This document shows positions 10,706 through 32,164 of a stretch of 64,000 nucleotides of DNA, one piece after another. The translations under genes were made by a program, and so were the position numbers. The notes below the pieces were generated by a model that was given only the letters and a program-made list of their open reading frames with translations, did not search any database and was not told the origin of the DNA. Every line of letters begins with the position of its first letter. Position 1 is the first letter of the stretch. The stretch is taken from contig NZ_BLWF01000004.1 of assembly GCF_013167955.1 (NCBI RefSeq), positions 62,001 to 126,000 on the forward strand. The letters run 5' to 3'. Source of the stretch: Thermanaeromonas sp. C210 (GTDB lineage Bacteria > Bacillota > DSM-521 > Neomoorellales > Neomoorellaceae).

Positions 10706-10948
10706 TCACTCCTTCCAGGGGTCCGTGACACGGCCGGGAACGAAACTCACCACCCGGCCAGGCTGGTAGGGGCTGTAAAGGTAATCGGCAGGGTCGGTGC
10801 TCAACAGGCGCACAACCCGCGCCTGCTGGAAGCCCAGGGGTTCTACCAGCAAGGTCAACCTTCCCACCTGTATCTCCTGGAAGCTGGGCCGGAACCCGTC
10901 AGCTCCCTCCCAGATCAATTCCGGTATCATGGGAGTATAGATTACCAT
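10706..10948 (-). CDS. ylzJ: YlzJ-like protein
   Basis: An 80-aa protein beginning MVIYTPMIPELIWEG, the pattern of the small YlzJ family found between tepA and spoIIIE in spore formers. The body (QEIQVGRLTLLVEP, ARVVRLLSTDPADYL) fits a short all-beta fold. Function is unknown. Its ATG overlaps the tepA stop codon at 10948, indicating translational coupling to tepA, and with tepA split it would be translated only from the 3' part of that message. Confidence 0.85.
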   Translation of the reverse strand: MVIYTPMIPELIWEGADGFRPSFQEIQVGRLTLLVEPLGFQQARVVRLLSTDPADYLYSPYQPGRVVSFVPGRVTDPWKE

Positions 10949-11310
10949 TAGTGGAGACCTCCCGGACCCGGAGCACCTTCGGCTATCAGGGTCTTCAAGT
11001 GATTTACCGCCTGGGACAATCCTCCCACTTCATCTATGAGCCCCACTTCGACGGCATCCCTCCCAACCAGAACCGTACCAATATCCCTGGCCAGCTCCCC
11101 TGTGCGGAACATCAACTCACGGAATTTCTCTTCGGAGATTCTGGAATGCTCAGTGACGAAGCGCACCACCCGGTCCTGCATCTTATCCAGATATTCGTAG
11201 GTCTGGGGCACACCGATTACCAGGCCCGTCAGCCGGATGGGGTGCACCGTCATGGTAGCGGTTTCCGCAATAAAGGAGCGGTTGGCGGCGACAGCGATGG
11301 GCACCCCCAT
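10948..11310 (-). pseudogene. tepA: tepA 3' part (gene split by the intervening element)
   Basis: This is the C-terminal part of a ClpP-like protease of the TepA/YmfB family, from [13 protein letters not shown] through [15 protein letters not shown] (the His of the active site) to the end, [13 protein letters not shown]. The 5' part lies at 37670-38083. Upstream of 11308 the reading frame continues into unrelated element sequence, so the homologous portion ends exactly at the 14-bp repeat 11294-11307. An in-frame ATG (11310-11308) is created at the junction but lacks a well-spaced ribosome-binding site. Joining the two repeats restores a continuous 249-codon tepA (135 + 114 residues). Confidence 0.9.
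11294..11307. repeat. Left attachment-site core (14-bp direct repeat)
   Basis: GCGATGGGCACCCC, identical to 37680-37693. The next base differs (C 11308 versus T 37694), marking one limit of the shared core. On the minus strand the core reads through tepA codons for G-V-P-I-A. The element-side flank 11311-11324 provides half of the palindrome seen at the predicted circle joint. Confidence 0.85.
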
Positions 11311-11437
11311 CGACCCCAAGTAGCTACCAACCGGAATTCCACAGCTATTAACATAGAGACGCCTTACACTCGACGCAGTAGTAACTAACTGGTAAAAAAA
11401 TAAAAAGAAAGTAATTTCCATTAATGGAAGGATAGTT

Positions 11438-11615
11438 ATGGCTAGACTGAACCGTAAACTGGAGAAAATCACTCTTTCCCCTCAGCAGTTTAAAAAATTG
11501 ACGGATTTCATCCGCAGTCAGGGGGATGCCCTCGCTTTTTTATCTATGGCTCCTACGGGACAGAGCTACAAACTCCGTTGTCGGATATTGATTTTGCCGT
11601 TCTACCAATGCCGAC
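11438..11615 (+). pseudogene. Truncated, frameshifted nucleotidyltransferase (MNT-type) remnant
   Basis: The reading frame from ATG 11438 encodes [18 protein letters not shown] and runs to DALAF. It must then shift frame at a six-T run (about 11538-11543) to continue as FIYGSYGTELQTPLSDIDFAVL. That is the GS-x10-DxD signature of minimal nucleotidyltransferases, the antitoxin partner of HEPN toxins. The ORF then runs into the 3' end of the serine recombinase gene on the other strand and loses similarity. It is therefore both frameshifted and truncated. No HEPN partner lies beside it on this strand. Confidence 0.65.
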
Positions 11616-13316
11616 CTACAGGGACACTGCCACCCGGAGTTCCACCGTACCCTCTCCTTCACCTCCGGCCAGGCGGGCGAACTCGGTGAGGTCCACGCGG
11701 TAGCTTATCTCTAGTCTATCCTTCCAGAGGGTAACCTTGTCAATAATCTGGGCCAGCATCCTCTTCTGCACCGGTACAGGAGCCGTGATAAAAATGTCAA
11801 ACCACCGGGGCGCCAACCTGGCGAATTCCTGAAGTTTTTCCCGCTCGTAAGTGCAGGCCCTCAATTCCGCCCTAGTCGCGGCTACCTTCTTTTCCAGGTC
11901 GGCTATCTCCTCCTGGGCCCTTTTTATCTCGGCCGCCATGAGTTCCTCACTGTAAAGGCTTCCGGCAGGATCGGAAAAATATTGGTTTAAACGTTCCACC
12001 CAGTTCTTGAGCCGCCGCTTGGCCTTTTCGAGCTCGGCTTCGAGGTGTCTTATCTCCTTATTAAGCCTCATAACCGTTAACTGTTGGCGGCTGTCGATAT
12101 AGGCCTCCAGGTTACCCAGGTCGAGGTTGGATAGGAACATCCGGAGCTCATTTAGGAAAATGGTATCTATCTTTCTCTGGGAGTAACTTCCCTGGCCGGG
12201 ACAAAATTCCTTGCCTATTCTGGCGTGAGTAATACAGCGGTAGTAAGCGCGCTCGTAGATGTAAGTCTTCCCATTAGGCTTGGTTATTTTAGCCCTGTTG
12301 CTCCTGCTCGAGATAAAGCCCCGCCCGCAGTACCCGCACTTAAGGAAGCCGGTAAGTAGCGCCGGGCCATCTAGGGCCCTGGCATCAGGCTCCTCGTTCC
12401 GGGCGGAAGCTTTCATCTTCTGCATTACTTTAAGCCAGGTTTCTAGGGGGATTATAACATACTCCTCAATGGGCCTGGGATTGCCGTCTTCATCCCTGGG
12501 AATAATTATCTCCGGATTATTAAGGTCATACCGGTCTTTCACTCGACACCGGGAGGTAGGAGTATTGCCGGGCCTGGTACGGTTGTAGGCCGGTAGTCCA
12601 GCTATAATGGGGTTTTGCAGTACATCCCTTACTCGCCCGTCGCGCCACAGCTTCCCTTCCCTCGTCCTTAAGCCCCGGCTATTGAGTATCTCCGCGATCT
12701 TCTTGCTTCCCACGCCTTCTTCCAGGTAAAGGCGCACCATCTCTTTTAGAACATCGGCTTCCACCAGGTCTATCTCCAAAGGCAAACCGTTCTTGCGAGA
12801 AGACAGCCGGAACCCATAAGGCGGTCTGCCCCCGCTCCATTTACCCTGCCGGGCCAGATCGAGCATCGCCTGGGAAACGCGAATTGAGGTGTTCTTGCTT
12901 TCGGTTTCCGCCTGCCACCCCTCGATAAAGCGGAGGAGCTTTTCCATCTGGTCGTCCACGTTAAGCTTCCGACCCCCAGGGGCATCGGCCACCGCAATAA
13001 CCTCCACCCCTGCGCGGTAAAGCCGCCACAGTACCATCGGGTACTCGAAGCTATTGCGGCTAAGGCGATCGGCCTTGAACACAAGTAGCACGTCATACTT
13101 ACCGGCTTCGGCCTCGCGGAGGGCATCCTGTAAAATATCCCTGTCTATTGAAGATAGCTTATAAGCCGATACCCCTGGCTCTATATATTCAGCAACAAGT
13201 TCCCAGCCGCGCTCGGCCGCGTACTCCCGCAGTAAATGTTGCTGGACAGGGATACTGTCTTCTTCGGTCTTAACTTGCTTTTTCGTGCTCACCCGGTATA
13301 GAGCGGCTGCCCGCAA
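11616..13316 (-). CDS. Large serine recombinase (site-specific integrase)
   Basis: A 566-aa large serine recombinase, the class that integrates and excises elements such as the B. subtilis skin element and phage phiC31. The N-terminal resolvase domain has the catalytic Ser in LYRVSTKKQ (residue 10) and the KADRLSRN motif. It is followed by a Recombinase domain (PPYGFRLSS onward) and a zinc ribbon (CGYCGRGF ... CITHARIGKEFCPGQ). A C-terminal coiled-coil segment (about 410-510) is of the type that controls synapsis. It starts at TTG 13316 with GGAGG 8 nt upstream, and its ribosome-binding site overlaps the end of the upstream 60-codon gene. Its 3' end lies about 310 bp from the left att core. 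It is inferred to catalyse element movement in tepA. Confidence 0.95.
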   Translation of the reverse strand: MRAAALYRVSTKKQVKTEEDSIPVQQHLLREYAAERGWELVAEYIEPGVSAYKLSSIDRDILQDALREAEAGKYDVLLVFKADRLSRNSFEYPMVLWRLYRAGVEVIAVADAPGGRKLNVDDQMEKLLRFIEGWQAETESKNTSIRVSQAMLDLARQGKWSGGRPPYGFRLSSRKNGLPLEIDLVEADVLKEMVRLYLEEGVGSKKIAEILNSRGLRTREGKLWRDGRVRDVLQNPIIAGLPAYNRTRPGNTPTSRCRVKDRYDLNNPEIIIPRDEDGNPRPIEEYVIIPLETWLKVMQKMKASARNEEPDARALDGPALLTGFLKCGYCGRGFISSRSNRAKITKPNGKTYIYERAYYRCITHARIGKEFCPGQGSYSQRKIDTIFLNELRMFLSNLDLGNLEAYIDSRQQLTVMRLNKEIRHLEAELEKAKRRLKNWVERLNQYFSDPAGSLYSEELMAAEIKRAQEEIADLEKKVAATRAELRACTYEREKLQEFARLAPRWFDIFITAPVPVQKRMLAQIIDKVTLWKDRLEISYRVDLTEFARLAGGEGEGTVELRVAVSL

Positions 13317-13319
13317 GGT

Positions 13320-13502
13320 CTATTCCTCCAGTTTGGCCCAAATCATTTGTGCTGCAAGGTAGCGGAATGTCTCTAGTCTCTTATCGGCATCTGTAGCATC
13401 GCGGGGAAATTTGTTTTCTACCGTAATATCACCATATTTACGGGTATAAACAACGTGATCTCTTTCTTCTTTTATATTATACTGTGCTTGTAGATCGCCC
13501 AC
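13320..13502 (-). CDS. Small protein coupled to the recombinase; candidate directionality factor
   Basis: I place the start at GTG 13502-13500, since AGGGGGGTGG lies about 7 nt upstream. The frame is open further to TTG 13571 but without a good ribosome-binding site. The 60-aa product is charged and soluble (MGDLQAQYNIKEERDHVVYT then GDITVENKFPRDATDADKRL). Its stop codon sits within the ribosome-binding region of the recombinase gene, so the two are co-translated. Small genes next to large serine recombinases often encode recombination directionality factors. I have no sequence-level proof of that here. It could equally be an unrelated accessory protein. Confidence 0.6.
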   Translation of the reverse strand: MGDLQAQYNIKEERDHVVYTRKYGDITVENKFPRDATDADKRLETFRYLAAQMIWAKLEE

Positions 13503-13767
13503 AACGCCACCCCCCTGTTTATAGGCTGCCAAAGAGGAATCAAAATATGCAAAATAAGAAAACCGGACCAAGAAAGCCTGGTTATTCCAATGAAGTAAAC
13601 CTCCGCCGCGCTTATTTCGGCATCCTCTTCACATACGCTGCCTCTACAAAACGGTGGGCTTCATGAGGCTGGTACTATATTGCGGCCTGGTTGACAAAGG
13701 TCGAAGCACCAAAGGCTTTACCTGGCATGTGGGAGGGCGCCCCCGGGGCGCTTAACCTGCATTTAAA

Positions 13768-13882
13768 GGGAGGAGCACCTTTGGCGTCGCTCCTCCCACT
13801 AGAATCAGGAAGGCCTGCACGTGCAGGCCCTCCTGAGTGGTGCCCATATAAGCATAACGCCCGGCTGGTATCCACCGGGCAG
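13768..13882. repeat. Cluster of three inverted repeats (hairpins)
   Basis: Three inverted repeats follow one another: GGGAGGAGC/GCTCCTCCC (13768-13797); a near-perfect 32-bp palindrome centred on GGCCTGCACGTGCAGGCC (13805-13836); and a CCCGG-type terminator hairpin (about 13858-13882). The second and third have relatives beside the intact HEPN gene at 35807-35834 and 35905-35930. They lie between the recombinase module and a HEPN remnant, in an otherwise gene-free stretch (13572-13900). Confidence 0.6.
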
Positions 13883-13899
13883 TATCGGATAAGTGCGAT

Positions 13900-14080
13900 T
13901 GCTGACTTCTTCTGCTATAAGATATTCAATTTGGCGAATTAAGTATTTAACTTCGTCAAACCAGGGAGCAACATCACTCTTGCCTCGAAGTTGACCAGGT
14001 CTGCATAGTCCGCCTTCCGCCGGGCGTCATAGAGCCTATCGGATAACACCGTCAGGCGGTTCCTCCGTTGCTTAAGCGAG
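13900..14080 (-). pseudogene. HEPN-domain toxin remnant
   Basis: On the minus strand LYDARRKADYADLVNFEARV closely resembles LFDARQKADYADLVKFEADI of the intact HEPN protein at 35969-36376. After that, similarity continues only in another frame (WFDEVKYLIRQIEYLIAEE), showing a frameshift near 13965. Only the C-terminal half is left, and the N-terminal half and start are missing. It is a dead relative of the HEPN gene at the other end of the element, with a similar terminator hairpin downstream. Confidence 0.7.
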
Positions 14081-14233
14081 CGCGGGGCACAAGTGGTAGT
14101 CGTCAACCCCATGAGGACCAGACTACGCCGAGGCACCAAGTATGTATCGCGCTGATTATACCAGCTCCCAAAGGCCGTAATAAACACACTCCACAGGCCT
14201 TGAAAGGTCCACTGGCAGAAGGGCTCACCATAG

Positions 14234-14911
14234 TTACCAATAGTTACCTGTTCTAAATTCTTCCGGATCTACCGCTCGACCCGGGAATACCTCTAGGAAA
14301 TCCTCTCCATCTAATTGCAAATTTATGAGACGCTCTAGCCACCTTAAATCACCTTGCAATTCATCATAATGCAAATTACAGAAAGCAGCAAATGCCCGGG
14401 TATACTGCCGGTCCTCTACACCCTGGCTTTGCCCTGTATCGATGAAGGCCACGCGGGTATACCCTTTAAGCATCTCTTTTAAAATCCACCTGGCCGTCTC
14501 GCCTCCGTAAAGGGGAACACATCGCTGGTATTCTTTGTAGGGGTCGGAACCGAATTCTATCCAACCTCGGCTTAAATAATAAGCATTGCCCTTCTCTTTA
14601 TCCCTTTCATGGGCCGCACGAGATCCTAAAAGCAACCCGATGCAGTCGTCAGCCTTAGGAATCACCAGACGACAGCGGCGGGTCTGCAAACCGGTTATAC
14701 CATTGCCACATAAGCCATAACCAAGAATAATAGTACTATTAAATCCTTCTTTTTCCATTCGTTCGATATTTTCCTGCACCGTAACCCGGAGTAAATCCGG
14801 TGTCCGGTGTAAACCTTGCTTTAAAAAAGTAACTTCTTTTAAGTTTACCCCTAAGCTTTCTAGCTCGTAGCGCAAAACCTCGCAGGCAATAATATATCTT
14901 ACTAGCTGCAA
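14234..14911 (-). CDS. DUF1638 family protein
   Basis: A 225-aa protein with features I associate with DUF1638: IILGYGLCGNGI, then IPKADDCIGLLLGS and YYLSRGWIEFG. Members are often found beside corrinoid methyltransferases and URO-D-like methylcobamide:CoM methyltransferase genes, and the next gene upstream here is a URO-D-family fragment. No precise reaction is known to me. The conserved Cys and Asp residues suggest a metal or cofactor site. The start is TTG 14911 with GGAGG 10 nt upstream. The ORF appears intact, although its partner is truncated. Confidence 0.75.
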   Translation of the reverse strand: MQLVRYIIACEVLRYELESLGVNLKEVTFLKQGLHRTPDLLRVTVQENIERMEKEGFNSTIILGYGLCGNGITGLQTRRCRLVIPKADDCIGLLLGSRAAHERDKEKGNAYYLSRGWIEFGSDPYKEYQRCVPLYGGETARWILKEMLKGYTRVAFIDTGQSQGVEDRQYTRAFAAFCNLHYDELQGDLRWLERLINLQLDGEDFLEVFPGRAVDPEEFRTGNYW

Positions 14912-14947
14912 AAATAGAGCACCTCCGAAGCAAAACAGGGATCCTTT

Positions 14948-15466
14948 CTAGGCTCCCAGAAGCGTTCCCCACTCGTTTACCATCTCACCGATTCTTTTAA
15001 TACGAGAAAATTTGGCGTTAGCCGGTACAGTATCGGCTACACCGAGGATAAACCGGTAACCTGGTGCTATCTCTTTAAAAAGCCTACGCATAAAGATCTC
15101 AAATTCTTCATCGGTCATACTCTCTTCCTCTAGCGCCACCGAAGGTACCCCACCAAAAATAGTCACTTTATCCTTAAAGGCTTTCTTGATCTCAGGAATT
15201 GTACATTTGGTCATAGGTTGAGGACATATGGCCTCCGCTATGTCCATCCCGCTTTCAGCTAAAAGGTTTAATAATCCCTGATTTTCCCCGTCACAATGGC
15301 ACAAAAGAAGCTTACCTTTTTCATGAAGTAAACTGGATAGATTTTGAAGGTAAGGCATGATATATTTCTCGAAAAAGGGTGGATAAGTTAGCATTTCATC
15401 GAAATTAGCCCCCGAAAATACCACTTCTGCCGGAGAATCAGCTAAAATACGAAAATACGCTGTCAA
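14948..15466 (-). pseudogene. URO-D/MtaA-type methyltransferase, N-terminal half missing
   Basis: The 172-residue ORF matches the C-terminal half of the uroporphyrinogen decarboxylase-like family used for corrinoid methyl transfer. Visible signatures are SPAEVVFSGANFDEML, LLCHCDGENQGLL and VTIFGGVPSVALEEE. Family members are about 340-380 aa, so half is missing. It begins abruptly at 15466 (TTG), just downstream of a strong hairpin and about 225 bp from the 3' end of a group II intron. His-x-Cys in LCHCDG looks like the zinc/substrate region of MtaA-type enzymes. It was probably inactivated by a deletion at its 5' side. Confidence 0.7.
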
Positions 15467-15506
15467 GTGTCATCATAGGTCATCAGCTCACTTTTTTAGA
15501 GTTGTG

Positions 15507-15530
15507 ACCAGGGGCGAAAGCCCCTGGTCA
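15507..15530. terminator. Strong hairpin (12-bp inverted repeat)
   Basis: GACCAGGGGC pairs with GCCCCTGGTC around a GAAA-type loop (12 paired positions in all). There is no U-run on the minus strand, and only AAAGG follows on the plus strand. It may be a terminator or a deletion scar at the edge of the truncated URO-D gene. Confidence 0.4.
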
Positions 15531-15538
15531 AAGGAACA

Positions 15539-15679
15539 TTAATTTAACTCTAACGGATATTTCCCATATTTTTTCACAGCCCGGGCCAGGGCCCAAACAT
15601 TCTCCACCTTCGCCTCCTTCTGTCTTTCCACTTCCTGCAGCCAGGCGTGAGTGGCAAACTCGAGCGCGAGGGAAACCAC
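15539..15679 (-). CDS. Short ORF of unknown function just after the group II intron
   Basis: A 46-codon frame from GTG 15679 encodes a helical peptide (LEFATHAWLQEVERQ, VENVWALARAVKKYGKYP). It begins about 12 nt past the intron 3' end, with GGGAGGTG overlapping the start. It may be the C-terminal tail of a gene whose front was lost when the region was rearranged. I do not recognise the family. Confidence 0.3.
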   Translation of the reverse strand: MVSLALEFATHAWLQEVERQKEAKVENVWALARAVKKYGKYPLELN

Positions 15680-15690
15680 CTCCCATAATA

Positions 15691-17581
15691 ATCGAGTAGG
15701 AGGGGGCGGCTAGCCCCCGTCCTCTCACACCACCGGACATGCGGGTCCGCATCCGGCGGTTCATCAAGCTTGACGAAGACAAGAATAGCGGTCGGTTAAG
15801 CTCATGAGGCCCTGGGACTGCCAATAGGCATTGCCCAGGGCTCTATTCATTGGCCCATGGGCCATCCGCCATGGCCCTTTGCGAGCATTGGCAAATTGAT
15901 GTACTACCCACTCTGGTAGCCCCAGTGCACGCAGTTCGCGGTATCTTGTCCGTACTCGCTTCCACTGCTTCCAGAGACACATGCGTAGCCTCCTCCGCAT
16001 CCAGCCTTCTATCTCCTCAAAGACGCTGGGCGTTTCGGCCAGGGCAAAGTATCCTATCCACCCGCCCAAGTAGGCGTTGAGACGCTCTATACGCTCGGCC
16101 ATACTCACGGGTTTATTCCGGGCAGTTATCTCCCGAATTTTCCCTTTCACCCGCTCGATGGTCTGAGGCGCCAGGCGGATAAGAATTTCTCCTGTCTTGC
16201 GTTTGTGCATGCTGAACCCCAGGAATTTCAGTTTCCACGGTCGGTCTACCGCGCTCTTTTGCTCATTAATCTTGAGCTTCAACCGCTCCTGCAGGAAGTT
16301 GCGGATACTTGCCATGACCCTTTCTCCCGCTCGTTTGCTTTTGACGTAGATGTTGCAGTCGTCGGCGTAACGGACGAATTTGTGGCCCCTCTTTTCCAGT
16401 TCTTTGTCCAGGTCGTCCAGGAGGATGTTGGCCAGTAACGGGCTTAAAGGTCCACCCTGCGGCGTCCCTTCTGCCGTCTCTATGACTATTCCGTTTACCA
16501 TGACGCCTGCCTGGAGATAACGGCGGATAAGGATGAGTACCCTCTTATCCGTTACTTTTCGGGCCACTCGGGCCATGAGTATGTCGTGGTTTACCCGGTC
16601 GAAGTATTTCTCGATGTCCAGGTCCACAGCCCATTCGTATCCTTCTTCTACGTACTGCCGCGCCTTCTTTACCGCGTCGTGGGCTCTCCTTCCGGGTCGA
16701 AACCCGAAACTGCCTTCTGAAAACTGCGGTTCGAAGATGGGCGTCAATACCTGCAGGAGGGCCTGCTGGATCAGGCGGTCCATCACTGTGGGTATCCCCA
16801 GCTTCCGTTTGCCTCCCCCGGGTTTCGGGATTTCGACCCGGCGCACGGGCTTTGGTCTGTAGGTTCCCGCGAGCAGTTCTCCCCGGATGCGCGGCCTTGT
16901 CAAACGCGTATTTGGTCCCGCAACCCTTCGGCCGGGATGCCGTCCACGCCGGGCGCGCCTCCGTTCCGCTCTACCCGCTTTAACGCGGCCAGCATGTTGC
17001 TCCTTTCCACCACCTGCTCCATCAGGCCGCTACCTTGGCCTCCGCGAGGTGACGTTCCGCTTTGTGCCGGAGAAGAACTCGGCCCTCCCGCGGTCCCCCG
17101 TGGCTTCACCACTTCCTCCCGCGGACAGGCCCCTTGCGGGGTTTTCTGCTGTCTTCGTCCTTCTCGCGAACGCATCGGTTTCACCTCTGACTTGATGTTC
17201 GGGCCTTCCCCTGGTGTTCATGACCCCCTGGGTACTATGCCCTCTGCTGACTCCTGCCGGTTCAGCCGTGCCTTCCGACACGGGTTGCCAGCTTTCCCTG
17301 GCTTATCCGGCAGGCCTCCCCGGGTAAGAGCGTTAACCTTCGCCCCGCGCCCGCCCCATCTACTCTACCGCCCCTTGGCAGCCTGGGATTTCGCTGTGTG
17401 TTGCCAGCTCATCCGAACGGTCTAGCCTCCTATGGGGTTCTTGTTCATCGGGCCGTGGCTTTGCCTCCGGCTTCCTTCGAATCCTACCTCGCGGTAGGCA
17501 CCCTTGCCTTTGGCTAGCAGACTGTGCTGCCTCGCCTGCAGCGGACTTTCACCACCAAGTTAACGCCCATGCCGGGCGCAC
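15691..17581 (-). mobile_element. Group II intron (class C type)
   Basis: The minus strand carries the full intron. The 5' end at 17581 reads GTGCGCCCGGCATGGGCG followed by the domain I start GGTGGTGAAAGTCC. Domain V is the hairpin GAACCGCCGGATGCGG ... CCGCATGTCCGGTGGT at about 15725-15770. Domain VI is ACGGGGGCTAGCCGCCCCC with the 3' end CCTACTCGAT at 15691. The 5' exon is an intrinsic terminator stem, the favoured target of group IIC introns. The 1,891-bp intron encodes a maturase/reverse transcriptase that is frameshifted, so the intron RNA may be intact but immobile without help in trans. Confidence 0.9.
15764..17184 (-). pseudogene. ltrA: Group II intron reverse transcriptase/maturase, frameshifted
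   Basis: Two frames together make one class C intron-encoded protein. The first part (GTG 17184 to 16900) contains KTPQGACPREEVVKPRG and MEQVVERSNMLAALKRVERN, ending at DQIRV and a stop. The second part starts in another frame with RPRIRGELLAGTYRPKPVRR. It includes the reverse-transcriptase blocks GIPTVMDRLIQQALLQVL, GFRPGRRAHDA, TPQGGPLSPLL, the catalytic FVRYADDC and a C-terminal maturase region ending LTDRYSCLRQA. Adding one G near 16903 gives a continuous QIRVW-T-RPRIR, so a one-base loss explains the break. There is no HNH endonuclease domain, as is normal for class C. Confidence 0.85.
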
Positions 17582-17582
17582 A

Positions 17583-17609
17583 ACAAAAATCGCCCTCCTA
17601 ATGGAGGGC
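17583..17609 (-). terminator. Intrinsic terminator forming the 5' exon of the group II intron
   Basis: On the minus strand GCCCTCC-ATTA-GGAGGGC is followed by GATTTTTG. The intron begins immediately after this at 17581. The stem includes the stop codon of the 42-codon ORF. Confidence 0.8.
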
Positions 17610-17726
17610 TACTTCTTCGCCTACGGTTTCCACTGCATGTTCGTAATGCCTTATGGGTATATCGGCTATGGACCCCTCACCGTGGAAGGGCTCGTAGGTT
17701 TTAAGCTTTACTTCTTTGCCGTCCAT
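17598..17726 (-). CDS. Short ORF of unknown function
   Basis: A 42-codon frame from ATG 17726 (MDGKEVKLKTYEPFHGEGSI, then ADIPIRHYEHAVETVGEE) ends inside the terminator stem. Codon use looks like real coding sequence and the stop-terminator arrangement is that of a gene end, but the ribosome-binding site is weak (AGGG). It could be a small intact gene or the tail of a lost one. No family recognised. Confidence 0.4.
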   Translation of the reverse strand: MDGKEVKLKTYEPFHGEGSIADIPIRHYEHAVETVGEEVALH

Positions 17727-17762
17727 GGTGCGCGTGCTGCCCTATGATCAAGACCGTCGCTT

Positions 17763-18680
17763 TTACAGGTCATTCAAAGAGCCAAAGGAGTAACCTCTGC
17801 TCTTTAATTCCTCTATTACCTCACCGAGCACCTCCGAGTTACTGCGGCTCACCGCATGGAGCAGGAGCACGGATCCGGGCACCGCGCCTGCCAGGATAGT
17901 CTTCTTGGCCAATTCCGGCTCCGGTTGGTTGTCGGTCAGCCAATCGCGATAGGCAAAGCTCCACAAGACCGCGCGGTAGCCGTGGTCGCCGGCCGTTTTC
18001 AAGACCACCTCACTTAAAACCCCCTGAGGTGGCCGGAAAAACTCGGTAGACGGTAATCCCAAAGCAGCCAGCAGGCCATCAACAGCCTTCAACTCGTGGA
18101 GAATTTCACTGGGGGAAAGTTGACTCAGGTCGGGATGCGACTCGGTATGATTGCCGATGAGGTGACCTTCGGAGGCTATCCTCTTTACCAGCTGGGGCTG
18201 GTTCTTCACGAAGCTACCGGTGACGAAAAAGGCTGCTTTGACGCCTTGCTGTTGTAGGGTATCCAGAATCTTGGGGGTAAAGCCGGCTTCATACCCCAGG
18301 TCGAAAGTCAAATAAACCGTCTTCTGAGGCGGCCCGACAAAAATACCTTCATACTCGGCCAGGAGCTGTTCTATTTCCGGGGCTGTATTCACCCTGCCGG
18401 CCTTAAGCTGGTACCAGAAGCTGAGGGACTTAGCAGACACGTTGTCCTGCCCAGGTGTCTCCACTGGCCTTGGCGGCTCATCCTCTTCTTCCTCCGATTC
18501 CTTAATCTCCTCTTCTTCTGGGAGATCAATCTCTTCTTCTTCCTCCTTGACTTCCTCTATAACCTCTGGAGGGTGTCCTTCGCTTATTGGCGGATTATTT
18601 TGGACAGGAGGAATATAAGAACAAGCAGCAAGGAGACTAGCAAGTACGGCCGAGAATAAAAACAATAAGACCCTTTTCAT
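17763..18680 (-). CDS. Polysaccharide deacetylase lipoprotein
   Basis: A NodB-homology carbohydrate esterase expected to deacetylate peptidoglycan or another surface glycan outside the membrane. The start is ATG 18680 with GGGGG 9 nt upstream. A lipoprotein signal follows, with lipobox LLAAC (about residues 18-22), then a proline/acidic linker rich in E (about 40-85) and the catalytic domain. Motifs are TFDLGYEAG (metal Asp region), GNHTESHPDLS (metal His pair) and FFRPPQGVLS. The 305-aa protein resembles the clostridial PdaA-like enzymes used in spore cortex modification, but the exact substrate cannot be told. It is transcribed toward the group II intron. Confidence 0.85.
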   Translation of the reverse strand: MKRVLLFLFSAVLASLLAACSYIPPVQNNPPISEGHPPEVIEEVKEEEEEIDLPEEEEIKESEEEEDEPPRPVETPGQDNVSAKSLSFWYQLKAGRVNTAPEIEQLLAEYEGIFVGPPQKTVYLTFDLGYEAGFTPKILDTLQQQGVKAAFFVTGSFVKNQPQLVKRIASEGHLIGNHTESHPDLSQLSPSEILHELKAVDGLLAALGLPSTEFFRPPQGVLSEVVLKTAGDHGYRAVLWSFAYRDWLTDNQPEPELAKKTILAGAVPGSVLLLHAVSRSNSEVLGEVIEELKSRGYSFGSLNDL

Positions 18681-19128
18681 GACAAAATACCCCCATGCTG
18701 GCAGTATCTTCTGCATAGATCGACATTCGTGAGCACTTTAACTCTAACATATTTGCATAAGGGGATCTGCAGGAATTATCACCCATGGTTCCGGCGCCGC
18801 CTGCCGGAGAAGAGCTCCGTATGTTCAATAGCCTCTGTTGCATAAGGGGCGACTAGAAGGGCGGCCCTACGGGACAGCCCCAGGGCCGTTAAAGGCGAGA
18901 CGATCATTTAGGCATAATGAAGAGAGCAAAAGCAGTAAAAAAGGGAGGAGGTCTAGGGCCGCAGGGGGACACCTTTTCTAAGGGGCATTCCCTTGGGCCA
19001 AACCCGGTTCAAGAAGGAAAAACCGGGATTACCCTCCCGGTACCGCTGCCGTTCATCCTTGCCAGGCAGATAGAAAGATTTATATGGTTACCTTTTCCCT
19101 TCGCCCGAAACCCGGCCCAGAAGAAAAA
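18681..19128. other. Intergenic region between the ligase and deacetylase genes
   Basis: No convincing gene. A weak terminator-like hairpin on the minus strand (CCCGGTT ... AACCGGG, 19003-19027, followed by TTTGG) could end the ku-ligase transcript. A plus-strand frame at 18917-19132 has no ribosome-binding site or recognisable motif and is not called. Confidence 0.4.
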
Positions 19129-20058
19129 CTAGCATAATCCCCGATAGCTGGGATGGCGGAGGCGGCCCTCCGGCGTCTCCTCCAGATACTCCACTTTGCA
19201 CACCAGACGGGGTTCCACCCACCGGACCCCCCTGATACCCGCCAGCCCTTCTACCTGATGGGGCAGAAGCGAGGGCAGTTTTTCCAGCTCCGCCAGGAGA
19301 TGCCTCTCTTCCTCCCGGTCGAAGCCGGTGCCCACCTTTCCCCGGTACACCAGCCGGCCATCCAGGTATTCACCCAGCAGAAGGGCACCCAACTCGCGGC
19401 GGCCGGTCCCCGGCTGGTACCCCAGAATGAGGAATTGCCCCTCCCGGGTACGCCTGAACTTTCGCCAGTAACTAGAGCGACGGCCCGGAAGGTAAGGGCT
19501 CCCCTTCTCCTTGGCCATAACCCCTTCCAAACCCTGCTCGAGGCAGGACTCGAAAAACCTGGTCCCATAGGTGCTGATAAAGCCGGATATTATGAGGTTA
19601 TCCGTAGGCCGCACCGCTTCCTGAAGCCAGCCTTTGCGCACCTCCAAGGGCCTGGCCATAACATCTTGACCGCGGTAATACAGAACATCGAAGACCACCA
19701 ACAGGGCGGGCGCCCGCGCGGCCGCCCTGCGCACCTTCCACTCGTCAATTAGATTTCCCCGAGCCTTAAGGAAATTAAAGGAAGGGCGACCCGTATCGTC
19801 CAAAACTATTATTTCTCCGTCCAGTACCAACGGCTGACCCTTAACTGAATGGTGAAAGTAGGACAGATCCGGGAAGGAACGGGTGAGATCCTGCAGGTTG
19901 CGTGATTGAAGGATGGTTTTCCCGTCAATATAAGCCAGACAGCGGTAGCCGTCCCACTTTATTTCATATATAAAGTCGGGCGAGTCAAAGGGTTCGCTGG
20001 ATACGGCCAGCATGGGCCGGAGCCTGTAAAGCGGCAGCCCTGTATGGCCCGGTGTCAT
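19129..20058 (-). CDS. ATP-dependent DNA ligase (LigD ligase domain)
   Basis: A stand-alone version of the ligase module of bacterial LigD, sealing DNA ends in non-homologous end joining. The 309-aa protein has the adenylation motif EIKWDGYR with the nucleophilic Lys (residue 30), VLDGEIIVLD, the LVVFDVLY segment and EGVMAKEKGSPYLPGRRS. An OB-fold C-terminal domain (about 205-309) includes the nucleotidyl-transfer motif region WRKFRRTR. Its ATG overlaps the ku stop codon by 4 bp, so ku and ligase are co-translated. In most bacteria the ligase is fused to the polymerase, but here that is a separate gene at 21331-22227. Confidence 0.92.
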   Translation of the reverse strand: MTPGHTGLPLYRLRPMLAVSSEPFDSPDFIYEIKWDGYRCLAYIDGKTILQSRNLQDLTRSFPDLSYFHHSVKGQPLVLDGEIIVLDDTGRPSFNFLKARGNLIDEWKVRRAAARAPALLVVFDVLYYRGQDVMARPLEVRKGWLQEAVRPTDNLIISGFISTYGTRFFESCLEQGLEGVMAKEKGSPYLPGRRSSYWRKFRRTREGQFLILGYQPGTGRRELGALLLGEYLDGRLVYRGKVGTGFDREEERHLLAELEKLPSLLPHQVEGLAGIRGVRWVEPRLVCKVEYLEETPEGRLRHPSYRGLC

Positions 20059-20873
20059 GAGGTCTTTCGCCGGCGCCGGGCACCGGCCTTTTCCTCTTTT
20101 TGCACCATCTCAATACTGGCTTTAAGGGCCTCCATAAGGTCCACCACTTTGTGGGCCTCGGGCCGGGCCGGGACCTCCACCTCTTGCCCTGCTATCTTAG
20201 CCTCTACCAACTTTCTCAGAGCCTGGCGGTACTCGTCGGTGTACTTTTCCGGCCGGAATTCCGCCGTCAGGGTGTTAATCAGGGTAACCGCCATTTCGAC
20301 CTCTTTGGTCTCCAGGCGCACCTCATATTTAAGCTCCGCGAGTTCCCCTACCGAACGCAGTTCTTCGGGGTAGATCATGGTATTCAGCATAAGGCTCTTA
20401 TCATACACCCTTACGGCGGCCAGGGAGGTTTTATTTCTTAAGGCGACCTTGGCAATGCCTATTTTCCCCGTCGCCTTTAGAGCCTCCCACAGTAAGGCAT
20501 AGGCCTTTTGCCCCCCGTCGGCGGGTGTCAGGTAATAAGAGCGGTCAAAGTAGACAGGGTCTATCTCCCGGAGGTCCACGAAGTCGAGGAGGTTAATAGT
20601 TCTGGTAGCTTCCCGGGGCAGATCTTCCAGGTCTTCTTCCCGCAAAACAACGTACTTCCCCTTTTCGTACTCATATCCCCGCACAATCTCCTCCAGGGGC
20701 ACCTCTACCTGGCAGTAAGGGCAGTACCTCCGGTATCTGATAGGGGTTTTGCACTTGGCGTGCAGGTAGTTAAACTTTACACCGTTGCTTTCGGTAGCCC
20801 TGTACAGCTTTACCGGTATGTAAACCAGGCCGAAGCTTATAGCTCCCTTCCAGAGCGGACGCACACCCTTCAC
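20055..20873 (-). CDS. ku: Ku DNA end-binding protein
   Basis: Bacterial Ku forms a homodimeric ring on DNA ends and recruits LigD for end joining. The protein opens VKGVRPLWKGAISFGLVYIP, the standard Ku N-terminus, has CPYCQ in the strand-gripping region, and ends in a basic tail (ARRRRKTS). I start it at GTG 20873. A sigma-G-like promoter at 20913-20942 would start RNA near 20905, so the upstream TTG at 20909 would not be transcribed. The length is about 272 aa. It overlaps the ligase gene by 4 bp. B. subtilis ku (ykoV) is a forespore sigma-G gene, which fits the promoter here. Confidence 0.93.
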   Translation of the reverse strand: MKGVRPLWKGAISFGLVYIPVKLYRATESNGVKFNYLHAKCKTPIRYRRYCPYCQVEVPLEEIVRGYEYEKGKYVVLREEDLEDLPREATRTINLLDFVDLREIDPVYFDRSYYLTPADGGQKAYALLWEALKATGKIGIAKVALRNKTSLAAVRVYDKSLMLNTMIYPEELRSVGELAELKYEVRLETKEVEMAVTLINTLTAEFRPEKYTDEYRQALRKLVEAKIAGQEVEVPARPEAHKVVDLMEALKASIEMVQKEEKAGARRRRKTS

Positions 20874-20912
20874 TCCAACCCTTATTCCCGGACACCCCGG
20901 TTTTTTCAAATG

Positions 20913-20942
20913 TAGTATGTCTCCCCATACCCCCTGTAATAC
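20913..20942 (-). promoter_or_regulatory. Sigma-G/F-like forespore promoter of ku
   Basis: Minus strand GTATT (20942-20938), 18-bp gap, CATACTA (20919-20913). CATACTA is the sigma-G -10 consensus, and the -35 matches G-N-A-T at 4 of 5 positions. Exactly the same layout (GTATT-18-CATACTA) precedes the 5' part of tepA. Confidence 0.6.
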
Positions 20943-21330
20943 CTGCCGCCGGCTCCGGGGACCTCGGGCGGAAACCGCCCTGCCGCTCCGTTAACCGCTG
21001 CTCAAAGTTTCCACCCGCACCTAGGTAAACACCTGGCGCATCCCTACTTTTTAGCGGGGCGTGATTTAACTCCCGCTCGCCCCGTGAGCCTCGCGGACTA
21101 ATACTTGTGCTCAATTTTCAGCCTCCGGCGGGGTCCCCGACTCATTTGGCTTCCGTACCTCAGGAGCTGGCCTCGCCGTCCATAGCCTCGGCCCCGCCTC
21201 CGTCCTCAATTTCGCAAAAGACTGCCTTCCGCTCAGGTCAAGTCGCTCGCTTACCTAAATCACCCTTATCAAAATAGTGGATACATCGAGGGTAAACACT
21301 TCATCCTTGCCAACGTGGAAAAGCCGCTCT
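20943..21330. other. Intergenic region between ku and the LigD polymerase gene
   Basis: About 390 bp with no supported gene. The ku promoter lies at its left end. No clear terminator for the upstream polymerase gene was found. Confidence 0.4.
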
Positions 21331-22227
21331 TCAAGGGGACACTAAAACCCGGGCCGCCTCCAGAAGGGAGGTAAGGTCGTTGCGGCCCTCGAGTAAACCC
21401 CGGTAAAGATCCCCCCGCTCCTGGAGGCGGCTGCAGATGGTGTGGATGTTAAAATCCTGGGGGACTATTCTCCCCTCTTCTACCTCCTCCCAGGTCAGTG
21501 GTGCGGACACCGGAGCCCCGGGCAGAGGCCGCAGGCTGTACGGAAAGGCCATGGAGCGGCCCCGGGCATTCTGTCTGTAGTCGAAATATACTTTACCCCT
21601 GCGCCTGGCTATTTCATGGGCAATGGTTACCTTGGCCGGATATATCTCGGCCATCATGCCGGCCAAAGCGCCCACGGCCGCCGTCACCTCGGAAAAAGTC
21701 CACCTGGGTGCCAGGGGAATAAAAACGTGAAGTCCCCTGGCTCCTGAAGTCTTGGGATAACCGGTAAGCCCCAATTCTTTCAGAACCCCGCGCAAAAGAA
21801 CGGCCACTTCCAGGACATCCCGGAAAGTGGCTCCTTCTGCCGGGTCCAGGTCAATCACAGCTATATCGGGATACTCCAGGTGCTCCGCCCGGGAAAGCCA
21901 GGCATGGAGCTCGATGCACCCCAGGTTGGCCAGCCAGGCCAGGGTCTCCGGATTATTGCACAAAACATAGTTAACGCGCTTGCCGCTCTCGCGGTGGTGC
22001 ACGGTTACGGTCTCCACCCAGGGCGGGGCACCGGCGGGGCATTCCCTCTGGTAAAAGGCCTGCCCCTTTATTCCGTCCGGGTATCGCTTCATTATCACCG
22101 GCCGACCCTTGAGGTAGGGAAGGACCACCGGAGCCAAATCGATATAGTGCTTTATAAGGTCAAATTTGGTCAACCCTTCTTCCGGCCAGAAAACCTTATC
22201 CAAATTGGTTAATTCTATTTCGTTCAT
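21331..22227 (-). CDS. LigD-type primase-polymerase
   Basis: The polymerase module of NHEJ (archaeo-eukaryotic primase superfamily), which fills gaps at joined ends and favours ribonucleotides. The 298-aa protein opens MNEIELTNLDKVFWPEEG, a signature of LigD polymerases. It has the catalytic pair in VIDLDPAEG, TSGARGLHVFIPL, and FDYRQNARGRSMAFPYSLR near the C-terminus. The start is ATG 22227 with GGGGCAAGG upstream. An extension to 22338 has no ribosome-binding site. It is separated from ku-ligase by a 460-bp gap but lies on the same strand. No phosphoesterase module was seen. Confidence 0.92.
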   Translation of the reverse strand: MNEIELTNLDKVFWPEEGLTKFDLIKHYIDLAPVVLPYLKGRPVIMKRYPDGIKGQAFYQRECPAGAPPWVETVTVHHRESGKRVNYVLCNNPETLAWLANLGCIELHAWLSRAEHLEYPDIAVIDLDPAEGATFRDVLEVAVLLRGVLKELGLTGYPKTSGARGLHVFIPLAPRWTFSEVTAAVGALAGMMAEIYPAKVTIAHEIARRRGKVYFDYRQNARGRSMAFPYSLRPLPGAPVSAPLTWEEVEEGRIVPQDFNIHTICSRLQERGDLYRGLLEGRNDLTSLLEAARVLVSP

Positions 22228-22450
22228 AGCCTTGCCCCATCGACTTTTCTCTAGGGCGAATCTCCTCCAAGGTCCGCAGGCCTTTCTTCTGGCCGGTTGG
22301 CAACCCCAACCTAACCGGCTAAGCTTACATCCTTCCATTCAAGGTTAAGTATTTCCGCGCTACTACTTGGGATATTCGGCCGAACCTGGCGAAAGTAAAT
22401 TAACCCTCTTATTCGGCGCCTAGAAAAACCGGCTGCCCCTCGGTAGCTTT

Positions 22451-22485
22451 AAAAAGAATAAACCCCGGTGTGCCGCCGGGGTTTA
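22451..22485 (-). terminator. Intrinsic terminator after the copper-amine-oxidase-like gene
   Basis: On the minus strand TAAACCCCGG and CCGGGGTTTA form a 10-bp stem with a 7-nt loop, followed by TTCTTTTT. It starts about 8 bp after the stop codon at 22493. Confidence 0.85.
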
Positions 22486-22492
22486 TGTCGTC

Positions 22493-23761
22493 TTATCGGT
22501 TTGAGGACAGCGCTCTTAGCCAGTAATCCTGGATAATGCTCTGGCCGTAAGTGGTTCCCGGTACCGCCCAGCGGGCGTTGAGCTCTACCCATCTTTGCGC
22601 CGAGCCTCGCTGGACCAGATTGAACCGCGGGTCGTACAGGGTTTTCCCCGGAGGCAGGGGCTCCTTGGTAGCATAGGCATAGAGGTGCTGGATATGAGCC
22701 TCCACCCCGATGGCCGGGGACGCAAAGGTGGCGCCGTAAAGGCCGGGCTGCAGGCTGACGGCCGACGGGTCGGCCCCATTCAAGGACTCCTGTCCTGTTA
22801 GGGGCTGGCTGGTTGCCCACAGGCCGCAGTAGTTATTCTGAAAGGCCTTTACGCTACCCGTGAACTGGAAGTAGCGGGTCTCCTTGACCGCCTGGGCGAA
22901 GGCCAGGTCGCCCCGCACGCCGTATTGCTTGCCGATCTTGATATACAACTCTGGTAGTTCATCGGGGATAGGCAACATTTCCCGTCCCTCCCGCCGCATC
23001 ATCTCAGCAATACGCGGCGTCTCCTTGGCCATCCAGGCCTTGAGGTCATCTGCCGTAAGTATCGGTTCGCCCATAATGGTCAGGTCGGCCGTCTTAATTA
23101 CGGTTCCGCCCGGCAGTTTGATTTCGTGTTTATACGGGGCCAGGAGTTCCAGCATCTTTTTAAACTCCTGCACTTGGGCGGGACTAAAGGCCTCTTCCCC
23201 CATGGCAGGCAGTTCGGAGGAATTCACAACTCTGCCGTCCAGCAGGCGCAGGTTGGAGCGGTAAGCGGCCAGATCCTCCAGCAGCTTGAATGTAAGCGAC
23301 TTTATTTCTACCACCCTCGTTGCCTGTACCCAATGTACCTCACAGCCCAGGGCCTCGCCCACCGCCCGCAGGGGAACCACCGTCCGGCCGGCGGCGGTTA
23401 TCCGGGCCTTGCCGTAAGAAGGAGGAATATTAAGCGCTTCCCCGTTCACAACTATCTCCACATCTGTATTCTTACCGGTACGCGGCGGCACCGCATATGA
23501 GTTATCGTCCCCAGAGGTGATGACCACCTGTCTCGTATCCTGCCGCCATTCCACTAATGCGCCCAGTTTTTCGGCGATGATGCGCAGCGGGACGTAAGTA
23601 CGGCCTCCCTCTATAAATGGCGCCTGGTCACCCGGCGGAATACTTACCTCCCTGTTATTAACATAAATACGCGCCGGCGCCGTCCCTGCCACCGCCGGAA
23701 CGCTAGTTAACACCAAAATCCCCGTGCATAAAATACACGTAACCGCCTTTTTAAAAAACAT
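22493..23761 (-). CDS. Exported protein with copper-amine-oxidase-like N-terminal repeats and glucosaminidase-like domain
   Basis: A signal peptide (about residues 1-26, VTCILCTGILVLTSVPAVAG) is followed by two copper-amine-oxidase N-terminal-like repeats (PF07833 type). Each has the PLR core: GGRTYVPLRIIAEKLGA and AGRTVVPLRAVGEALGC. A mixed helical spacer leads to a C-terminal glucosaminidase-like domain (about 265-420) with QAVKETRYFQFTGSV and NNYCGLWATS. Such proteins bind and cleave cell-wall glycans. I start at ATG 23761, preceded by GAAGGGG. The upstream frame extension to 23860 has no signal. The substrate is inferred from the fold only. Confidence 0.8.
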   Translation of the reverse strand: MFFKKAVTCILCTGILVLTSVPAVAGTAPARIYVNNREVSIPPGDQAPFIEGGRTYVPLRIIAEKLGALVEWRQDTRQVVITSGDDNSYAVPPRTGKNTDVEIVVNGEALNIPPSYGKARITAAGRTVVPLRAVGEALGCEVHWVQATRVVEIKSLTFKLLEDLAAYRSNLRLLDGRVVNSSELPAMGEEAFSPAQVQEFKKMLELLAPYKHEIKLPGGTVIKTADLTIMGEPILTADDLKAWMAKETPRIAEMMRREGREMLPIPDELPELYIKIGKQYGVRGDLAFAQAVKETRYFQFTGSVKAFQNNYCGLWATSQPLTGQESLNGADPSAVSLQPGLYGATFASPAIGVEAHIQHLYAYATKEPLPPGKTLYDPRFNLVQRGSAQRWVELNARWAVPGTTYGQSIIQDYWLRALSSNR

Positions 23762-24149
23762 CGTCGCTACAACCCCTTCCGGGGTTGTATATTCGACGAG
23801 AAAGCCTATAATTCCTCCGCTTAAGGAACCATCCCGCGAAAAAAAGACGTTCCAATCCAACCGATGCTATTACGTCATGTTAGACTTCTAAGCAGCAGGG
23901 GAAAATAAAGGCCAACCCTGGAATGCGCCTTGAGGTCGTAACCTAAACGCACCTTGCCATTAACTTATACTTAACCATCCTTCTCCGCCCCACCTAAAGT
24001 ACATCTCCCTACCAAGTCCGTTTATTGAACATACGTATTATAAAGTAACACTTAAACGTCATGGGCTGGACCAAGACGTTTACTTGGGCAGGACGATATA
24101 AATTTCTCGAATATGGTTTCCTATACTGAATGCCGGGGGGTACAGGAAG
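23762..24149. other. Intergenic region between divergent genes
   Basis: About 390 bp between the exported protein (minus) and the GICGF-family gene (plus). It must hold both promoters. A TATACT box at about 24119-24124 lies shortly before the plus-strand gene, but I could not pick a convincing -35 element. No gene is supported. Confidence 0.35.
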
Positions 24150-24471
24150 ATGGCTTATGCTAAGATAGATGCGGGCATTTGCGGTTTCATCACGGAAGTA
24201 GAAGTAACCGCCAGCGGTGTAACGCAGGCCGGGGTGAAAATCAGCAGCACCTGCCCTAATATCCAAAAAATAGCTGCTAAGCTCACCGAGGTTAATCCCC
24301 TAGAAGAGATTGGAAGCAAGAATGAACGCAGCCGTATTCGCGAACTTTTCCGGCGGTATAGCCCCCATGCAGCCTGTCCGGTCCCTTCCGGGGTGGGAAG
24401 TGGCCGCGGGTCTCGCCCTACCCCGGGACGTCCACATTCACGTATCCCACTTATTATACGGGCTTTTTTGA
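24150..24471 (+). pseudogene. Small conserved GICGF/CPHAACPVP-family protein, frameshifted
   Basis: The first frame encodes AKIDAGICGFITEVEVTA, then STCPNIQKIAAKL and SPHAACPVPSGV. These belong to a small (about 100-aa) cysteine-rich family of clostridia that I believe is catalogued as DUF6951. After PSGV the family sequence continues only in another frame as EVAAGLALPRDVHIHVSHLL up to a stop at 24471. The expected residues between the two parts are also missing, so a small deletion at about 24398 both shortened and shifted the gene. AGGAAG precedes ATG 24150. The conserved cysteines suggest metal binding. A sequencing error is possible. Confidence 0.6.
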
Positions 24472-24534
24472 GGCCGGGACGATCCGGTTCACGGTATACG
24501 CCTTGCCGTGTTGACCTCAATAGTAAGAAAAACG

Positions 24535-24572
24535 TCCCTGCCCGGCACCCAAGTACCGGGCAGGGATTTTCT
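24535..24572 (+). terminator. Intrinsic terminator
   Basis: TCCCTGCCCGG and CCGGGCAGGGA form an 11-bp stem with a 10-nt loop, followed by TTTTCTT. It is read from the plus-strand gene. The minus-strand side also has an A/T-rich tail and could serve the dmsA-like gene, which ends at 24692. Confidence 0.8.
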
Positions 24573-24691
24573 TGGGCTCTGGGCTAACACATTATCGCCC
24601 GGGACGGAATATACTAATATACCGTCGCCCCCTCTCCTTCTTTTCCCGGGGCTTGCCTACCCTTGTTCCCTTAGCCCTTTTTTCACCATCC

Positions 24692-27067: not shown

Positions 27068-27170
27068 GACGTGCGCCTCCTTATTGTAAGATTCTTAACA
27101 ACCGAGGGCAATCACCCAGACCTCTTGCCCTCCCAACGGTTTCCTGACTACCCCCTTCCCCGAAACCGGG

Positions 27171-28496
27171 CTAAACATCGGCTGCCGGATCAAATATCTC
27201 CGGCCAGGTCAACTGGATCTTTAATTCGCGTAAGTAGCTGCCATCCTCGCGCTCCTCCATGACGCTAGTGGATATGCCTACTTCCACTTCCAGGCCTTTT
27301 AGCTCTTTAACCTGGTTTACATGAAACTCCAGAAATTGGAATGTCTTGTTGAGGTTATACCAGCGATAGTTCCTCTTCTTGAATACCCTCAGGACCCGCG
27401 GGATGTCGCCGCCGAACACTTTGGCCGACTTAATAAAGTAATCACGGGGAGAAAAATGGAGAAAGGGCGCTGCCCCGTGGCCGTAGTTTTGCCGGTAGAT
27501 CTGGCTGGTATTTTTATTTTCTAAAGAGCAATAGTGGATACCGATTTTTAGCCCCTGTTCGAGGGCAAAATCCATCAGTTCCAAACAGTCCAGCTCGCTC
27601 CCGGCCACCGGGAGTCCTCCGCCGTACCAGTAGTTGTAAAGCACCCGGTAAGGAGGATTCTTAATCTTGTACCCCTTTTCCCTGTAAACGTCGGCATTGT
27701 TAAATGGGTAGCAGAATTCCAGAAGGTTAATCCCAAAAATGTTTAGTCGTTCCAGCTCCAATAATATCCCTTGCATCTCGGGTACGGTTCCGGGCAGAAC
27801 CGGCATTTCCACCATTACCCGAGGGATATAATCCCGCGCCAGGGCTATATGCTTGAAGGTGCGCTGCCGCACCCCCTCTGGGTCGTGGAGCCTTATGCTA
27901 AAACGAATTTCATCCAGGCCGGCCCCTTGCAGGGCTGCCAGCATGTGGCGGTCGGCCAGGTCTCCAGCCGTATATAGGCGGGTATAAACACCGGGAAATT
28001 TTTCTTTGGCAGCGCGGAAAAAGGCCAGCATTTCTGCCGGGTGGAGAAGGGGCTCTCCTCCCGTTAACGCCAGGTGGGTTATTTCCTGCCCGGCCCTTTG
28101 TAAGTAATCTAGTTCCCGGAGACAGTCCCTTTTATTTTGGCTGTAATAGTCGTAGTTCTCCTGGTTGGGATTAAAGCAGAAGAAACAGCGGCGGTGACAC
28201 TGCAGGGAAAGGAATAAGGTGAGGCTTCCCACACCCTTCCGGCAGGCCAGGCAAGCAGGTGAGATGCGGTTTATATACAGGCTCTTAGCATCGTTCCGAA
28301 CTACTACACCCTTACGGCGCAGGTTCTCTATCCGATTCTTGGTTTCTTCTTGCCAGTTGTCCTCGGCTATTTCTATACCGGTCCGTCGGACTTGGTGCAA
28401 AAAATCTTCATATATCTGAAGGTATGTTCCGGCATACTTGGCTAGGACCGGATTTCTAATCCGGGGGAGAGTTTCCGGGCAGATATCAATGATCAC
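27171..28496 (-). CDS. Radical SAM protein upstream of the DmsA-like gene
   Basis: The radical SAM motif CHRRCFFC (about residue 105) and the glycine-rich LALTGGEPLLHP place this about 441-aa protein in the radical SAM superfamily. An earlier CLACRKG, with cysteines around 82-85, may pair with others for zinc or a second cluster. SRLHDPEGVRQ-type sequence and a C-terminal beta region follow. The start is chosen at GTG 28496 with GGGGTG about 7 nt upstream. GTG 28505 is possible but overlaps that site. It precedes the DmsA-like gene by about 100 bp on the same strand, so a role in maturing or modifying that enzyme is possible, but this is inference. Confidence 0.75.
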   Translation of the reverse strand: MIIDICPETLPRIRNPVLAKYAGTYLQIYEDFLHQVRRTGIEIAEDNWQEETKNRIENLRRKGVVVRNDAKSLYINRISPACLACRKGVGSLTLFLSLQCHRRCFFCFNPNQENYDYYSQNKRDCLRELDYLQRAGQEITHLALTGGEPLLHPAEMLAFFRAAKEKFPGVYTRLYTAGDLADRHMLAALQGAGLDEIRFSIRLHDPEGVRQRTFKHIALARDYIPRVMVEMPVLPGTVPEMQGILLELERLNIFGINLLEFCYPFNNADVYREKGYKIKNPPYRVLYNYWYGGGLPVAGSELDCLELMDFALEQGLKIGIHYCSLENKNTSQIYRQNYGHGAAPFLHFSPRDYFIKSAKVFGGDIPRVLRVFKKRNYRWYNLNKTFQFLEFHVNQVKELKGLEVEVGISTSVMEEREDGSYLRELKIQLTWPEIFDPAADV

Positions 28497-28983
28497 TCTC
28501 GCCACCCCTGCTACCGGCTGCGGTCAAGGCCGTCCGCCCCCAGGCGGATTGGCCGGTTAAATGGAGAGCGGAAGGTGGGAAAACCGTAGATAAGATAGGC
28601 CCATCCACACCAGAGCGCTGGTTTGGCCGGCCTCTGTTTTAGGAATATCCTAGCATTCACATTTTTGTAGATTCCACGTTGGCGCTTCCCTTCCCTTTAT
28701 CTAACGCAACAAACCTAACCCCTGGCTTTTTATATTAGCGTACAAAAATACCGTTACTAACCAGCCGCCATAACTGGCCGTATCAGGGGTTAGGAAGAAC
28801 AGGCTTTCTCGCAACCGTGGCCGGTCACATATGTTGCTACCTGCTGCAAATGAGATGAAAGAGATCATAATGTTAGTGGGTATTCATTTAAGGAAAGGAG
28901 GGTACGCCTCCCCCCATGTCGCAAGTTTAAAGGGGGGAGGCGTTAGGACGCAAAGTAGAGATTGACTTCTTAAAGGCGGGTCA
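28497..28983. other. Intergenic region with a long GC-rich hairpin
   Basis: About 490 bp without a supported gene. It contains a perfect 12-bp inverted repeat, ACGCCTCCCCCC (28904-28915) and GGGGGGAGGCGT (28932-28943). No U-run follows on either strand, so it is not a standard terminator. Confidence 0.5.
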
Positions 28984-29366
<383 letters not shown>

Positions 29367-29405
29367 AAACTCTCCTTTTCTTTTTTAAAGTTTTAAGATA
29401 TGCCC

Positions 29406-30527: not shown

Positions 30528-30534
30528 AAGTATC

Positions 30535-30908: not shown

Positions 30909-30944
30909 TGACTTGGAAAGAGACTTAGGAGTGTGCTGTTGTGC

Positions 30945-31437: not shown

Positions 31438-31462
31438 ATAAAAGGGGGCGGACACGCCCCTT
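31438..31462 (-). terminator. Terminator after the DUF2225 gene
   Basis: On the minus strand AAGGGGCG and CGCCCCCTT form a stem with a 4-nt loop followed by TTATT. The stem begins at the stop codon of the DUF2225 gene and can also stop plus-strand reading. Confidence 0.65.
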
Positions 31463-32147: not shown

Positions 32148-32164
32148 CTTTTAGCCAGCCCTTC

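Follow-up and report, generated by a model that had tools for sequence, protein, structure and literature searches.

The small gene and the adjoining recombinase gene

The minus strand of the window (the whole stretch of 64,000 nucleotides analysed here) carries at 11616..13316 a gene encoding a large serine recombinase (LSR, integrase) of 566 aa with a TTG start codon. The product matched the Pfam models PF00239, PF07508 and PF13408 over the cut-off, as well as PHROG 95 (integrase), and its catalytic serine motif, YRVS, is invariant. Its two long helices (403-448 and 457-511), forming a coiled coil, were modelled well, while the structural model as a whole was poor. The presence of Resolvase, Recombinase and zinc-ribbon domains, a coiled coil and the catalytic serine motif places this protein among the LSRs.

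Directly upstream, on the same strand, lies the 60-codon frame at 13320..13502 for which a role as directionality factor (RDF) had been suggested. It starts with GTG, stops with TAG and encodes a charged protein, as originally described (10 K+R and 12 D+E among 60 residues). A Shine-Dalgarno-like stretch, GGGGGGTGG, can be read at 13507..13515 (minus strand); the genome designated G014 has AAGGAGGTG at this place. The two genes adjoin but do not overlap as the original prediction had stated: the stop codon of the small gene (13322-13320) and the TTG start of the LSR (13316-13314) are separated by 3 nt and are in the same frame. The Shine-Dalgarno sequence of the LSR, GGAGG (13325..13329, minus strand, read from the sequence), is contained in the final codons of the small gene, and translation coupling is therefore possible. 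The predicted co-translation is thus plausible in the window, but it is not a fixed feature of the family, since in eight related loci the spacing between the two genes ranges from a 62-nt overlap (-62) to a 58-nt gap (+58), with +3 in the window. A small coding gene that abuts or overlaps the start of the LSR gene on the same strand corresponds to the layout of skr and spoIVCA in the skin element of B. subtilis.

A terminator-like hairpin, weak in the consensus scan, was found just 5' of the small gene (13567..13582, minus strand) and may insulate an operon comprising the small gene and the LSR gene. The consensus scan yielded no sigma-70-type promoter. The sequence TTGTGG-17-TATAAT at the start of the small frame was considered as a promoter for the LSR alone but is not put forward as one, having a poor -35 box and a -10 box that coincides with conserved Tyr-Asn codons. 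Read-through of the stop codon to give an RDF-LSR fusion was not supported: the two genes are in frame at 5 of the 8 loci and out of frame at the other 3, and the stop codon varies between TAG and TGA.

The element interrupting tepA and its attachment sites

The original prediction treated the integrase apart from its setting and overlooked that the ClpP-like sporulation gene tepA is split by an element with the LSR at one of its ends. The LSR adjoins the 3' portion of this gene (10948..11304, minus strand); the 5' portion is located at 37690..38146 (minus strand), its open frame continuing to 37670 within the element, and the intervening element, with ends mapped from the att sites, occupies 26.4 kb (11304..37690). 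On the minus strand, attL (11280..11330) consists of the LSR-side arm, GTAGCTACTTGGG, and the 3' part of tepA, with a crossover GT at 11304-11303, and attR (37662..37715) consists of the 5' part of tepA and the far arm, CCTAAGTAGC, with a crossover GT at 37690-37689.

The arms of the element form an inverted repeat, GCTACTT - 28 nt - AAGTAGC, centred on GT. The stretch common to both element ends starts at GT in G051 and stops at GT in G014. Because the centre of the repeat and, independently, these limits of the shared stretch coincide, GT was taken as the crossover dinucleotide. It falls in the Val codon of SIGVP, and computational joining of the flanks at this position gave a full-length TepA in frame. 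These comparisons show that the ends of the element are sites of the LSR type and that recombination at GT would restore tepA. As in a sporulation gene-intervening element, the gene is split at LSR sites and its frame would be restored by precise removal.

A tepA gene similarly split beside an LSR was found in six other genomes (G004, G007, G018, G051, G128 and G288), and in G014 with the element inverted. Interrupted sporulation genes described in the literature include sigK, spsM, spoVFB, gerE, yabG and kamA; no report of tepA as an interrupted gene was found in the freely accessible journal papers searched.

Gene content of the element and its relatives

The cargo of the window element includes an NHEJ set (LigD ligase, Ku and LigD primase-polymerase, 19129-22338), an apparently broken ammonium transporter gene (29630-30527), MotAB (32165-33739) and a HEPN/nucleotidyltransferase pair (35969-36768). 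Genes for a molybdopterin oxidoreductase, a radical SAM protein, a DDE transposase and a group II intron reverse transcriptase were also observed. No conjugation genes were found among the element genes searched. The G014 element, by comparison, encodes a TraG/VirD4-type coupling protein, a secretion ATPase and a DUF3854 primase, and the window element may be a decayed copy. A 67-aa frame near attR (36818-37021, minus strand), conserved among the elements, was considered as an alternative RDF gene and rejected as a remnant of the DUF3854 primase, of which G014 has a 328-aa version (L112:387-1373). Among the four complete elements compared, no genes except the LSR gene and the small gene were intact throughout.

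Two relatives have a distinct organisation. The G014 element (G014:C1:2745447-2823069; L008, L109-L112) is 78 kb long, carries the conjugation genes and is inserted in tepA the other way round. A GT core appears only when it is read in the reversed direction, as though the dinucleotide had been flipped relative to the LSR gene. The tepA gene of G007 (G007:C1:1333313-1740204; L006, L007, L089-L108) contains two elements in tandem, of 57 kb and ~350 kb. An intact attP-like site separates them at 1390413, and a cluster of six tRNA genes lies in the larger part.

Conservation of the small gene and its linkage to the LSR

Homologues of the small gene with 92, 68, 68 and ~45% identity were found at the equivalent position in G007, which has two copies, and in G014 and G018, and a GTG start following a Shine-Dalgarno sequence is kept in the four closest copies. 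For the two closest copies pS was 0.35 versus a pN of 0.04 (dN/dS ~0.09); against more distant copies the values were ~0.77 at synonymous and ~0.15 at non-synonymous sites. On account of its conservation across genomes and the low dN/dS, we conclude from these sequence comparisons that the small gene is a real protein-coding gene under purifying selection.

Relatives of the LSR were sought in 61 and then in 398 genomes, and the region 5' of each was inspected. A homologue of the small gene was located directly upstream of all eight testable intact LSR loci of the clade, which belong to 7 genomes. These include G051, G128 and G288, with LSRs of 57-65% identity, where the divergent small protein escaped the first sequence search. 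The eight loci do not comprise G004, where the contig stops within the LSR gene, nor G337, whose LSR is 44% identical and is preceded by a small frame of no established kinship. A profile built from the eight small proteins gave strong matches in the 398 genomes only at these LSR loci, the next match having E = 0.003. The small gene resides on the LSR's own element and is conserved together with the LSR, as is characteristic of RDF genes.

The small protein has diverged more quickly than the LSR: between G051 and G128 the LSRs are 97% identical and the small proteins 55%. At these loci (L040 and L043) the DNA identity falls sharply, from ~97% in the body of the LSR gene to ~70% over the small gene and the 5' end of the LSR gene. 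The drop suggests an exchange, and this upstream module may have been swapped by recombination.

No family comprising the small protein or its relatives was found in Pfam, PHROGs or NCBIfam, the phage and plasmid records contained no match to it, and the viral contigs matched neither it nor the LSR. A weak match of 30% identity on a 5-kb contig of a Lachnospiraceae genome, where no recombinase was seen, was attributed to chance. The predicted structure of the single chain consists of three strands and a helix (mean pLDDT 81). Neither the sequence search of the PDB (best E 1.3) nor Foldseek with the model (best E 0.08 for PAXX and 0.05 for a viral protein) gave significant matches, and no sequence similarity was detected between the family and SprB, the RDF of SprA in phage SPbeta. 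To our knowledge, the known RDFs are not alike one another, and similarity is no requirement for membership in the class.

Possible function of the small protein

The small protein is probably the RDF of the adjacent LSR, which we regard as its most likely function on the basis of sequence comparison and analogy. This is the best reading because of the linkage to the LSR, the selection on the gene, its retention in a degraded element and the precedent of Skr in size, place and setting. The role originally put forward is thus supported in part and indirectly; no resemblance to a known RDF was found in sequence or fold. The small gene, the LSR gene and the attachment sites most likely act as a single unit of site-specific recombination within an integrative element resident in tepA.

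Skr is the closest precedent. The gene of this 64-aa RDF, which is required for excision, lies immediately 5' of spoIVCA in the skin element of B. subtilis (PMC6957869). As compared by size, place and setting, the Skr-SpoIVCA and window pairs have in common a small gene immediately 5' of the LSR gene, a shared transcript (predicted in the window) and an element that splits a sporulation gene which excision rejoins (likewise predicted in the window); on the other hand, skin targets sigK, a mother-cell gene, the genes overlap by 101 nt, and the function of Skr is experimentally established while here it is inferred (PMC6957869). SprB and SprA of phage SPbeta (PMC4191935; NC_001884) similarly combine a 58-aa protein with an LSR that excises the element from a sporulation gene, but sprB is located beside the opposite attachment site rather than upstream of sprA, and SprB has no detectable homology to the present family. 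Two further systems were compared by description. CD1234 of the C. difficile skin element is a small RDF acting in excision only, and the gene of its recombinase, CD1231, adjoins the 3' portion of the interrupted gene as in the window; the RDF gene, however, lies apart from the recombinase gene and is under its own sporulation control by sigma-E and SpoIIID (PMC5025042). The gin element in gerE of B. cereus is a non-phage element targeting a sporulation gene, and its 42-aa RDF, GirX, was found via conservation between related elements; unlike in the window, girX is separate and away from girC, and gin is not known to be conjugative (PMC5595907). A directionality gene beside the integrase gene is also typical of the xis-int operons of lambda-type tyrosine integrases, whose recombinase chemistry is unrelated. 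Xis is a DNA-bending protein.

In known cases the RDF binds its LSR near the zinc-ribbon/coiled-coil hinge. By extension from other systems, the small protein would bind the zinc-ribbon/coiled-coil region of the LSR and would switch it to attL x attR recombination, while the LSR alone would favour attP x attB. LSRs usually integrate unaided and require an RDF for excision (PMC5025042, PMC11530663). The small gene and the LSR gene would be expressed together, and the element would be released whenever the operon is on, possibly in conjugation, sporulation or stress. Several points count against an RDF: neither sequence similarity to SprB nor a significant fold match was found, an RDF made jointly with the integrase would hinder integration, the consensus scan established no promoter for the LSR alone, and the small protein evolves faster than its presumed partner.

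One could also suppose that the small protein is a partner of the LSR other than an RDF, restraining or stabilising the integrase or being needed in both directions, with directionality set elsewhere. Linkage and selection would fit any LSR partner, and joint expression suits a chaperone or an inhibitor as well as an RDF. Nevertheless, we consider such a role rather unlikely, because the protein encoded at the equivalent place in the skin element is an RDF (PMC6957869) and the complete elements have no other small gene in common, the one other shared frame being the primase remnant. A role in cargo or transfer functions, with the integrase operon shared by happenstance, seems distinctly improbable: the family is devoid of any annotation and one related element is conjugative, but in the profile search of 398 genomes the protein was never found away from an LSR of this clade, and its gene persists in the window element, where conjugation genes were not found and the primase is fragmentary. 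If the frame served only as a translated leader with an inert peptide and controlled LSR expression through coupling, this would explain the placement of the LSR Shine-Dalgarno sequence inside the frame in the window; given that amino acids are conserved while synonymous sites are saturated and that the distance to the LSR differs so widely between loci, we regard it as very unlikely. Finally, frames of similar size end at the LSR start in a fraction of about 0.1-0.45 of shuffled upstream sequences, but a chance frame is contradicted by cross-genome conservation and low dN/dS and can practically be dismissed.

Small genes upstream of other LSRs

The host genome contains six other LSR-type loci. 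At 15 of 21 scorable loci, a frame of 38-120 codons terminated at the start of the LSR gene, versus 5.5 expected from shuffled upstream sequence; this is a crude count drawn from this and related genomes, with related loci, a simple shuffle and a few frames that look like chance. For four cross-genome pairs of other upstream genes the pS/pN values were 0.70/0.16, 0.51/0.11, 0.21/0.03 and 0.24/0.01. Since pS far exceeds pN in all four, upstream small genes of this kind are real in at least five LSR lineages, the present one included. The small proteins of the other lineages look, from their sequences, like one strand followed by a helix and gave no significant alignment with the present family.

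Small coding genes of their own, ending at the LSR start, were noted at L122, L123, L125, L134, L138, L139, L141, L144, L148, L149 and L150, and several of these are conserved between genomes (e.g., ...FEVIITRSGSQDEREQAYRKAIRFLLFRL...). Two or three LSR genes in tandem, resembling a cassette chromosome element, were observed at G001:C40:10708-14448, G024:C7 and G024:C14.

We tentatively propose, as a possibility still open to considerable doubt, that small genes directly upstream of LSRs form a general and largely unannotated class of RDF genes, so that for many LSRs the RDF could be read from gene position. If true, this would turn many LSRs into reversible tools. The LSR and its neighbour described here, with mapped attP, attL and attR sites, provide a pair that is ready to be tested.

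Possible timing and consequences of excision

The tepA gene of C. difficile is listed in the sigma-F regulon (PMC3789822), and tepA of B. subtilis and B. cereus is repressed by SpoVT (PMC5061766). If tepA is expressed in the forespore, the future spore, as in C. difficile, excision that restores the gene would have to occur within the spore lineage. Transfer would be an equally good reason to excise for an element descended from a conjugative one. Restoration of tepA in the forespore would strip the element from the inherited chromosome, unlike in the classical mother-cell cases.
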